A DNA stretch of 64,000 nucleotides, from NCBI RefSeq assembly GCF_011007365.1, contig NZ_WFKM01000013.1:1-64000 (forward strand). Reading direction: 5' to 3'. The translations under genes were made by a program, and so were the position numbers. Every line of letters starts with the position of its first letter. The first letter of the stretch is position 1. Shown piece by piece: positions 48,127-50,462 of this stretch. This stretch comes from Sphingobacterium sp. xlx-96 (GTDB lineage: Bacteria > Bacteroidota > Bacteroidia > Sphingobacteriales > Sphingobacteriaceae). Below the pieces are notes generated by a model. The model had not been told where the DNA came from. It did no database searches and saw nothing but the letters and a program-made list of their open reading frames with translations.

Positions 48127-49419
48127 TTATAGTGATGCTTTACGTATAGTGACCGCATTTTTGTGAGCGTGCAACCCTTCCAGTTCAGCCAGTATTTCTA
48201 CAACGGAACCGATCTGTTCTAGACCTTGTTCATTTATTTGTTGAAAGGTAATTTTTTTGATAAAGGAATCTGTAGAAACCCCCGAATAAGATCGAGCGTA
48301 TCCAGAAGTAGGCAATGTATGGTTCGTTCCTGAAGCATAGTCACCTGCACTTTCAGGAGTTAAGTGTCCTAAAAAAACAGATCCAGCATTGAGTATAAGA
48401 GAGGTGATAGACTGCCACGAATCCGTTTCTAGTATGAGGTGTTCTGGGGCGTATTGATTCGAAAAACTCATGGCTTTTCTTAAATCAGGAGTTAGTATAG
48501 CATATGAATTGGCCAGTGCTGCACTCGCGGTCTCCTTGCGAGGTAGCAGCTGAACCTGAGAGGCCAATTCTCTATTTACTTCTTCAATAAGATTAGCTGA
48601 TGTCGACACTAGAACTGCTTGACTATCGGCCCCATGCTCTGCTTGTGCTAATAAATCGGCAGCAACATAACTAGGATTTGCTGTTTCATCTGCGATAATA
48701 AGAACTTCAGATGGTCCTGCCGGCATATCAATACTAACGTTAGTTTGAGCTTGTATTATACTTTTAGCCTTAGTAACAAACTGATTACCTGGTCCAAATA
48801 TTTTATCAACTTTAGGGATGGTTTCGGTTCCAAACGCCATTGAAGCAATAGCTTGAGCTCCACCGACTAAGTATACACGATCTATTTTTAAAAGAGTAAG
48901 GCAGAATGCAATGAAACCGTTGATTTTACCCGACTTTTGAGGTGGAGAACAAACCACAATCTCTTTACAACCTGCTATTCTTGCCGGAACTCCTAACATG
49001 AGAAGAGTAGAAGGTAGAACTGCTGAGCCTCCAGGTATATACAAACCCACTCGTTCAATAGGGCGGATCTCTCGCCAGCATCTGACCCCAGGCATAGTTT
49101 CTGTTACTCTTTCTCTTTTCAATTGTGTACTATGAAATCGGTGTATGTTTTGAAAAGCAATTTCCAAAGCACGTTGCTGATCCCGGGAAATGGTAAGCGC
49201 TAGTTCTTCTATCTCATCTTTTTCGAGGTATATGTGTTCTAAGTTGACTTTATCAAACTTGGACGTATAGGCTTTCAACGCAATATCTCCATCTTTTTTG
49301 ACCTGATCAATTATACTGTTGACCGTCTCTTGAATGGCATTATTTGGATCGGTGTTGCGCAAGGTTAAACGTTGTACCTCAGTCGGTAGTAGGTTTTCGT
49401 AATTGTATACTTTAAGCAT
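48127..49419 (-). CDS. hisD: Histidinol dehydrogenase
   Basis: Last two steps of histidine synthesis (histidinol to histidine), zinc-dependent. A 430-residue protein with the family's FDKVNLEHI N-terminal segment, GLYIPGGSAVLPSTLLM, DMPAGPSEVLIIADE and the zinc-site region AEHGADSQAVLV with EHLILET. It overlaps hisG by a single base (TAATG). Confidence 0.96.
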   Translation of the reverse strand: MLKVYNYENLLPTEVQRLTLRNTDPNNAIQETVNSIIDQVKKDGDIALKAYTSKFDKVNLEHIYLEKDEIEELALTISRDQQRALEIAFQNIHRFHSTQLKRERVTETMPGVRCWREIRPIERVGLYIPGGSAVLPSTLLMLGVPARIAGCKEIVVCSPPQKSGKINGFIAFCLTLLKIDRVYLVGGAQAIASMAFGTETIPKVDKIFGPGNQFVTKAKSIIQAQTNVSIDMPAGPSEVLIIADETANPSYVAADLLAQAEHGADSQAVLVSTSANLIEEVNRELASQVQLLPRKETASAALANSYAILTPDLRKAMSFSNQYAPEHLILETDSWQSITSLILNAGSVFLGHLTPESAGDYASGTNHTLPTSGYARSYSGVSTDSFIKKITFQQINEQGLEQIGSVVEILAELEGLHAHKNAVTIRKASL

Positions 49420-50270
49420 TATAAAATAATTTTTTCGATTGGCATAACCACTATCCCTTGTGCTCCAGCCGATTTTAACTTATTAATTTTCCCCCAAAAG
49501 TCGTCTTCCGAAATCACCGTATGCACAGCGAACCAACCTTCCTCTGCCAAAGGAACAACAGTAGGGCTCTTTACTCCATGAAGAAGTTTAGTCACTTTTG
49601 GGAGATTTATTTTTTCAACATTTAACACGACATATTTAGTCTCTTTAGCACGAAGTACTGATCGTATACGCTGCAGTAATTCGCATAACACCTCGTTCTC
49701 TTCCAAACCTTCACGACCTATTAGTATAGCTTCGGACTTTCGAACATCAGCAAATGGTTTTAAACCATTGCTCTTCAATGTTCCTCCTGTAGACACTATA
49801 TCACAGATCGCGTCACTCAAACCTAAACCCGGAGCTATTTCGACAGAACCTGATATCGTCTGTATATCAGCGGTGATCTTATATTCCTGAAGAAAATTCC
49901 TTAAAATAACAGGGTATGAAGTAGCAATAGACTTTCCGCTCAGATCTTTAAGATCGGTGATTGTCGAATCTCTTGGAATAGCCAACTTTAGCATGCATTT
50001 TCCGAATCCCAACCTTTGCAGATAAGTAACGCTGGATTCCGTCTCATCGATTACATTTTCACCGACGATACCGATATCTGCTATACCTTCTTCCACGTAG
50101 CCCGGGATGTCATCATCACGGAGGAATAGAATCTCTAGATTGAAGTTAGAAACAGTAGTAATTAGCGAGCTTTTGTAATTTTCGAAATCAAGACCACAGT
50201 TTTTTAAGAGTTGAACTGACTTTTCGTTTAATCTACCCGATTTTTGGATAGCTATCTTTAAATTTTTCAA
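49419..50270 (-). CDS. hisG: ATP phosphoribosyltransferase, long form
   Basis: First and committed step of histidine synthesis (ATP plus PRPP). At 283 residues this is the long, hexameric form with a C-terminal regulatory domain (about residues 210-283) that binds histidine for feedback inhibition; no HisZ is needed. Conserved parts: AIQKSGRLNEKSVQLLKNCG, GIADIGIVGENVI, GLSDAICDIVSTGGTLK. Translation is followed directly by hisD. A histidine-rich leader peptide sits 84 bases upstream. Confidence 0.96.
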   Translation of the reverse strand: MKNLKIAIQKSGRLNEKSVQLLKNCGLDFENYKSSLITTVSNFNLEILFLRDDDIPGYVEEGIADIGIVGENVIDETESSVTYLQRLGFGKCMLKLAIPRDSTITDLKDLSGKSIATSYPVILRNFLQEYKITADIQTISGSVEIAPGLGLSDAICDIVSTGGTLKSNGLKPFADVRKSEAILIGREGLEENEVLCELLQRIRSVLRAKETKYVVLNVEKINLPKVTKLLHGVKSPTVVPLAEEGWFAVHTVISEDDFWGKINKLKSAGAQGIVVMPIEKIIL

Positions 50271-50353
50271 AATGAATTGCTTAGTTGAAATTAAACTATT
50301 ATTAATATTAAAATGAAATCGGAGGGGGATGCTTCACGTAGAAACACATAACA

Positions 50354-50413
50354 TTACATATCGCCAAACTGGCGATGATGCATATGAATGTGATGTGATA
50401 GCGATGTTATCAT
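50354..50413 (-). CDS. hisL: his operon leader peptide
   Basis: A 19-residue frame, MITSLSHHIHMHHRQFGDM, lies in the leader of hisG with five His codons among residues 7-13 (DNA 50375-50395). It starts about 20 bases after a consensus promoter. A 7-bp hairpin (ATCGCCA at 50360-50366, complement at 50370-50376) overlaps its end. Cluster density and placement are those of an attenuation leader peptide: stalling at His codons when charged tRNA-His is low would alter folding downstream. A perfect rho-independent terminator before hisG is not evident; only a weak six-pair stem with a bulge lies near 50310-50330. Confidence 0.7.
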   Translation of the reverse strand: MITSLSHHIHMHHRQFGDM

Positions 50414-50431
50414 TTATTAATAATAATTAGT

Positions 50432-50462
50432 CAAATTTATAGTTTTGTTAGAGAATGTGCAA
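50432..50462 (-). promoter_or_regulatory. Promoter of the his leader
   Basis: On the minus strand TTG (50462-50460), 20 bases, then TAAATTTG (50439-50432) match both Bacteroidota promoter elements with ideal spacing. Transcription is predicted to begin near 50426, about a dozen bases before the leader-peptide ATG. Confidence 0.75.

Follow-up and report, generated by a model that had tools for sequence, protein, structure and literature searches.

A histidine leader without a compact intrinsic terminator, and a predicted ribosome-dependent RNA switch, upstream of hisG in Sphingobacteriaceae

The hisG leader region and its conservation

The window analysed here comprises 64,000 nucleotides of contig NZ_WFKM01000013.1 from Sphingobacterium sp. 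xlx-96, and its minus strand carries hisG and hisD behind a short leader region (Table 1). The leader frame MITSLSHHIHMHHRQFGDM, with a run of seven residues that includes five His codons, is present upstream of hisG as the initial annotation had claimed, and it stops shortly before that gene, 83 bases from the hisG start codon rather than the 84 first counted. The hairpin described over the last leader codons is likewise there, and no GC-rich terminator was found before hisG, in line with the earlier remark that a strong one is absent. A promoter does lie at 50432-50462; the sequence that had been called a consensus promoter is, however, of the Bacteroidota type, with 19 nt between TTGC and TAAATTTG. 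To these features we add a second hairpin (P2), a long-range helix (P0) and the TTG start of hisG. The one-base overlap of the hisG stop with the hisD start (TAATG) could pass control of hisG on to hisD.

Table 1. Features of the hisG leader region of Sphingobacterium sp. xlx-96, in positions of the window
Feature	Position	Strand	Basis
Promoter -33-type element, TTGC	50459..50462	-	read directly; aligned TTTG/TTG in relatives
Promoter -7 element, TAAATTTG (TAnnTTTG)	50432..50439	-	family loci compared with shuffles
P0 helix, 5' strand, includes leader AUG (50413-50411)	50410..50428	-	minimum-energy fold; covariation
Leader ORF MITSLSHHIHMHHRQFGDM, 19 codons, ATG 50413 to TAA 50354	50354..50413	-	read directly; conservation; shuffle test
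A' segment, leader codons immediately preceding the His codons; alternative pairing partner for the 3' arm of P2	50395..50402	-	fold; permutation test
P1 hairpin, ATCGCCA-GTT-TGGCGAT; extends to 50392/50345 in free RNA	50360..50376	-	alignment, fold, covariation
P2 hairpin, GTGTTTC-TACGT-GAAGCAT, UACGU-type loop conserved	50329..50347	-	covariation, loop counts
Pyrimidine-rich linker CCCCCTCCGATTTC, without U-tract	50315..50328	-	read directly
P0 helix, 3' strand (50316-50312 and 50307-50294)	50294..50316	-	fold; covariation
hisG, TTG start at 50270	49419..50270	-	matches TIGR00070
hisD, one-base overlap of its start with the hisG stop	48127..49419	-	matches TIGR00069

The -7 element has the form TAnnTTTG, the consensus of the corresponding element of F. 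johnsoniae. Of 187 Sphingobacteriaceae loci (hereafter family loci), 155 have such a box no more than 50 nt from the leader ATG, as do 44 of 935 shuffled sequences; the pool of 189 loci behind this count contains 165 distinct ones. TTG is present in the -33 region of 135 of the 155. The -7 promoter element of F. johnsoniae is mentioned in PMC6847099.

Alignment of the hisG upstream regions of Sphingobacterium, Pedobacter and Mucilaginibacter had been set beforehand as a test of the proposed leader. A HisG search gave 226 related loci in named genomes, of which the best 80 were kept, mostly from Sphingobacterium and also from Pedobacter, Mucilaginibacter, Olivibacter, Daejeonella and others; L040 and L044 were left out for want of upstream DNA. 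The His cluster proved to be conserved throughout: a His-rich ORF (at least three His in eight residues) lies upstream of hisG in 78/78 of the relatives with enough DNA among these best 80 of 226 loci. Aligned with the xlx-96 locus, 56 of them display the Bacteroidota promoter, the leader, P1 at the leader end and, as another conserved block, TGTTTCTACGTGAAGCA; the majority of the named relatives outside this alignment were inspected by eye. A second family sample, with 12 loci identical to earlier ones, has the His leader in 105 of 110 loci. By the His criterion L180, L185, L230, L247 and L248 have none; nevertheless, the genomes of the first three (G215, G221 and G260) match the covariance model R1 of the two hairpins described below.

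Such a frame is not a product of chance, since ORFs that open with ATG and have four or more His among eight residues, present within 300 nt upstream in 80 of 84 family loci, appear in none of 840 dinucleotide shuffles; the opposite strand likewise has them in 0/84 regions. With the laxer cut of at least three His in eight the counts are 83/84 for the real sequences, 15/840 for the shuffles and 2/84 for the opposite strand. The 84 loci correspond to 78 distinct ones, and together with the 105 of the second sample they make up 189 loci, 165 of them distinct. The identification of the ORF as a His leader peptide is strongly supported by these sequence comparisons.

Two deviations from the common form were noticed. 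In L048 and L049 the P1 loop is one base shorter and the last leader codons are shifted (HHRHVAIC), while the His cluster and P2 are kept; the peptide tail therefore seems unimportant, and the His codons do not. Genus g124 (L203, L217, L245, L261) has another type of leader, which is longer (for example MITKQHIALHHHTHLHHGHHHHCA) and lacks both P2 and a compact terminator, and its hisG starts with AUG and has an adjoining hairpin-like stretch; these loci were excluded from the P0 and P2 tests.

Hairpins, long-range helix and alternative folds

The second hairpin, P2, is maintained by compensatory change. Both sides have changed in all six counted pairs, in an alignment of 80 chosen sequences (A1: 79 of 99 non-redundant loci plus xlx-96, the 20 omitted including those without a typical P2) as well as in all 100 non-redundant sequences. 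The covariation score of P2 is 0.244 in the chosen set, compared with 0.135 when shuffled and at most 0.086 when slid, and 0.216 in the full set, compared with 0.132 and at most 0.079. For P1, which lies inside the coding sequence, both-side changes were seen in 2/7 pairs with 80 sequences and in 4/7 with 100, and its pairing of 92% in the chosen sequences is lower (82%) in the full set. The P2 loop reads TACGT in 66/84 and 63/105 loci of the two family samples and is otherwise mostly TACTT or TACGC. In the second sample a typical P2 is absent from L225, L228, L255, L256, L263 and L266; L003 and L035, where the P2 finder picked another stem, were dropped in several scripts.

Searched with E <= 0.01 and strict filters, the covariance model R1 of P1-P2 has a single match in the xlx-96 genome and matches 191 of the 201 genomes sampled from the order, each listed genome belonging to Sphingobacteriaceae; there is one match per genome, except for G381 with two among the 201, and in the four genomes compared by eye (G299, G245, G329 and G210) it lies directly upstream of hisG. 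The xlx-96 genome contains one exact copy of the hairpin motif, that at hisG. Five one-mismatch copies in the same genome were rejected as chance-level hits by comparison with a reversed-pattern control (6 hits versus 5). A downstream antiterminator partner was sought for either hairpin in the family loci and none was found (mean z 0.34 to -0.15), nor did P2 pair with the 5'UTR, the His codons or the B segment; the ends of other-family leaders do pair downstream (mean z -1.07, n 52, in a set that included some mis-oriented loci).

P0 joins the leader start region to the stretch before hisG, and its complementarity is kept while the partner sequences vary among genera. In 55 representatives outside Sphingobacterium, one for each 5' sequence type and with identical loci removed, cognate strands pair at -8.73 kcal/mol and non-cognate ones at -5.73 kcal/mol, a difference reached in 0 of 20000 permutations, and in 5 of 20000 when strands were permuted within genera only; in this test and in that of A':D below, near-identical sequences were collapsed, which does not fully remove relatedness. 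The same test in 64 loci of other families gave p 0.097 and a mean z of -0.13. Judged against shuffles, P0 is less uniform, with z below -1.5 in only 47/84 and 28/57 family loci, and none was found in L146, L058 and L060. The 5'UTR upstream of the L146 leader carries an inverted repeat, TAGAGACGCAA..TTGCGTCTCTA.

Some loci have a long spacer before hisG. Eight of them (L014, L017, L018, L063, L198, L202, L208 and L270) carry an inserted stretch between the P0 region and a hisG that starts with ATG, some of these inserts having inverted GCATGAA/TTCATGC ends; in all but L202, P0 stays beside P2 and hisG begins with AUG 80-233 nt further on. In some insert loci the sequence TTGAAACC may be the old hisG start. 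L202, L208 and L270 were scanned against Rfam and gave no credible match. Elsewhere among the long-spacer loci the best P0 partner is 5-74 nt from hisG, or weak.

In the best fold of the xlx-96 leader region (z -3.5, reached by 0 of 200 shuffles) the 3' arm of P2 (D) pairs with A' in place of P2. A weak pairing signal between the 5' part of the leader and P2 (mean z -0.68) was traced to this A':D pairing, which is better between cognate than non-cognate segments (p 5e-5 in 66 representatives, compared with p 0.51 for the control A':C), stands out modestly from shuffles (mean z -0.67) and is not seen with the Mucilaginibacter-like D arm. We then modelled the effect of a ribosome by masking its footprint in the thermodynamic fold; loci lacking an ATG at a distance typical of the leader were dropped from some of these and of the P0 tests. 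In 89 non-redundant loci P2 has a probability of 0.17 in the free leader, which becomes 0.73 when a ribosome stands on the middle His codon and 0.09 when it stands at the stop codon; a ribosome placed on the last His codon gives a lower value than the middle one, 0.56 (166 loci). Shuffled leaders give 0.53, the native value being lower in 75/89 loci. From the masking and the shuffled leaders, the leader seems built to suppress P2 except when a stalled ribosome occupies the His codons. By computation, then, the folds are mutually exclusive and set by the position of the ribosome on these codons, with failures in one g1 locus, g122 and g127. On the other hand, P0 and the hisG start hardly respond in the same model, the pairing index of P0 being 0.96 free and 0.83 stalled and the pairing at the hisG start staying at 0.47-0.48. 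We consider a His sensor with a stall-dependent switch likely.

Terminators, hisG start codons and the output

The class sample consisted of 198 genomes, 87 of them with hisG; of the 84 upstream regions that were read, 79 belong to families other than Sphingobacteriaceae. His leaders occur in 64 of these 79 regions, spread over 28 of 36 families, and in 59 of the 64 hisG is preceded by a hairpin with a folding energy of -10 kcal/mol or better and a U-tract after it, so that the other-family leaders look like ordinary ribosome-mediated transcription attenuators. To judge from its spread, leader plus terminator is probably the ancestral state. Bacteroidota his leaders had been called little described; they are in fact common across the class, and a Bacteroid-trp motif (RF01692) is already listed in PMC2864571. 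Among the literature matches listed, none was, by its title or the start of its abstract, about a his leader of Bacteroidota or Sphingobacteriaceae. Vitreschak et al. (2004, FEMS Microbiol Lett) reportedly predicted some attenuators in Bacteroidetes/Chlorobi.

In Sphingobacteriaceae, a compact intrinsic terminator (-8 kcal/mol or better, hairpin of at most 41 nt) was found before hisG in 0/84 and 0/105 scanned loci, the distances for L119 and L136 being taken to the HMM match and not to the start codon. As first suggested for the xlx-96 locus, hisG might be controlled at its ribosome-binding region or through a non-canonical terminator; this is a live question, as the scans of the family yielded no compact terminator and His leaders of other families in the class usually have one. 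Outside the family, L141, L142, L145 and L160 (families f2, f15 and f32) have His leaders in which no terminator was found and the His codons lie near the stop codon, the first three ending in HHSS followed by a GAGGAA-containing stretch; these are possibly another, independent loss of the terminator.

The start codon of hisG also sets the family apart. It is TTG or GTG in 144 of 145 distinct family loci with a short spacer (<=95 nt), L229 being the exception, and ATG in 17/17 distinct long-spacer loci, the five class-sample loci belonging to Sphingobacteriaceae being omitted from these two counts; in other families it is AUG in 62/64. The -3 context of hisG is not weak, as A is common there (100/169 loci). 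Shine-Dalgarno sequences are lacking in Bacteroidetes mRNAs, on whose structure and A-rich context initiation depends (PMC6847099).

We regard the leader as a ribosome-mediated His attenuator without an ordinary intrinsic terminator, whose output is most likely the translation of hisG; we put the probability of this reading at about 0.5. Control of hisG translation is favoured because of the non-AUG start of hisG and because of P0, and as an output it is the most likely of several guesses. In this scheme a ribosome would translate the leader ORF and, with plentiful histidyl-tRNA, reach the stop codon, whereupon the leader RNA would form a long rod in which P0 holds the leader AUG, A' pairs with D, and P1 is extended; P2 would be held off and hisG-hisD expression would be low. 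With scarce histidyl-tRNA the ribosome would stall on the His codons and cover A' and the 5' side of P1, freeing C and D so that P2 could form. The bulky stalled ribosome, sitting inside the loop closed by P0, would keep open the AU-rich stretch before hisG, on which the weak UUG start would make hisG depend.

Stalling in vivo and the opening of P0 are steps that we infer. P0 does reach the region before hisG, yet the thermodynamic model shows little state-dependent sequestration of the start region, and since P0 and the pairing at the hisG start hardly change in it, the gating would have to rest on the bulk of the ribosome. Nor can direct gating of hisG hold unaltered in the insert loci, where P0 stays at P2 and hisG lies 80-233 nt further on. 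A fuller version, which we put forward tentatively and think rather less probable than not, is that the three-helix RNA replaced an ancestral terminator, that P0 joins the 5' end and the leader AUG to the loading region of the UUG-started hisG, that a stalled ribosome thereby controls translation of the operon, and that the UACGU hairpin, favoured only on stalling, is read by a partner. If so, a stalled leader ribosome would govern translation of the his operon in a phylum without Shine-Dalgarno sequences.

The main rival keeps the same sensor and places the output in Rho-dependent termination in the untranslated RNA that separates the leader from hisG; a ribosome that has finished the leader would expose the linker, and a stalled one together with P2 would hinder Rho. 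Such a mechanism, which has been proposed for terminatorless cys leaders in Mycobacterium (PMC1262725), would agree with the lack of a compact intrinsic terminator in the family loci and with the survival of the P0-P1-P2 unit in loci with inserts before hisG, as expected of an output upstream of that gene; moreover, the linker after P2 is C-rich in xlx-96, and the ten bases after P2 contain on average 6.1 to 8.0 pyrimidines in the larger genera (those with more than 10 loci). However, the free stretch is mostly only about 55-95 nt long, the linker appears equally open in both folded states, and the UUG/GUG starts of hisG would be left unexplained, and we consider Rho unlikely as the output. 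An unusual intrinsic terminator, in which the long OFF-state hairpin from A' to D and a U-rich tract stop transcription and P2 serves as the antiterminator, is improbable. The mutual exclusion of P2 and A':D would suit it, and at least five U in seven positions follow D in 59/182 family loci (18/19 in g2, 13/15 in g4 and 13/64 in the g1 set), 36/182 having in addition an OFF hairpin whose energy is -10 kcal/mol or better; yet the tract is missing from the other 123/182, that of xlx-96 (CCCCCTCC) is C-rich without a U-run, and the hairpin rests on a short A':D base.

We give as little credence to the idea that the fold mainly sets the lifetime of the mRNA, with P0 pairing the 5' end and the access of nucleases being altered by leader ribosomes or by P2. 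P0 includes the likely 5' end of the RNA, as judged from a transcription start placed by the promoter, but mRNA lifetime by itself would leave the His codons, the stall-dependent P2 and the missing terminator unexplained. Finally, the leader ORF might be the decayed relic of a class-wide attenuator whose regulation has been lost, which the absence of the terminator usual in other families would fit; with P2 and P0 maintained by compensatory change across the family and the His codons retained, this is very improbable.

Relation to known leader systems

The his operon attenuator of E. coli and Salmonella (hisL; Rfam his_leader RF00514) is the closest classical counterpart. Both have a short His-rich leader ORF between a promoter and hisG, directly upstream of the his genes, and alternative RNA folds, predicted in our case, that depend on the position of a ribosome; unlike hisL, the Sphingobacteriaceae leader lacks a compact intrinsic terminator between the leader and the first gene and has in addition the P0 helix and the UACGU hairpin. 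An Rfam search of the window found no family at the gathering threshold, including his_leader RF00514 and Bacteroid-trp RF01692, and no credible weak match, and ten selected loci gave the same result. The leaders of other Bacteroidia likewise precede hisG, and differ in their strong terminators (59/64), their AUG-started hisG (62/64) and the lack of a P0 signal (p 0.097).

In the translational attenuators of erm and cat genes, a leader ribosome stalls on a drug and frees a Shine-Dalgarno sequence. The hisG leader would resemble them in that a stalled leader ribosome opens the start region of the next gene, whereas the cue here would be uncharged tRNA-His, and Bacteroidetes mRNAs are without Shine-Dalgarno sequences (PMC6847099). 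Attenuators of Firmicutes, and some attenuators that act on the ribosome-binding site, are treated in PMC9413887, and 5'UTR ORFs reminiscent of leader peptides have been noted in B. thetaiotaomicron (PMC7366714). PMC2965389, PMC4833913 and PMC6429828 were also consulted. In the LEU element of Actinobacteria (PMC1262725), as in our leader, the leader peptide has the relevant codons and a closing stem extends to the stretch ahead of the first gene. That element, however, pairs its Leu codons with the Shine-Dalgarno box of leuA, and a pseudoknot has been proposed for it (PMC1262725). In our case the 5' strand of P0 is the leader start region and not the His codons. Bacteroid-trp (RF01692), which has no match in the window, is named for tryptophan. 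Table 1 of PMC2864571 includes it among the likely cis-regulatory RNAs of Bacteroidetes.

The hisG leader combines a known kind of sensor with an output other than the usual terminator, by a mechanism that is partly resolved. Across the class a single attenuator appears to exist in two versions: most of the sampled leader-bearing families have it with a terminator, and Sphingobacteriaceae, in which no compact one was found, keep the sensor and, by compensatory change, a new hairpin and a long-range helix. With the sensor fixed, a change of output becomes directly testable, in a phylum that lacks Shine-Dalgarno sequences.
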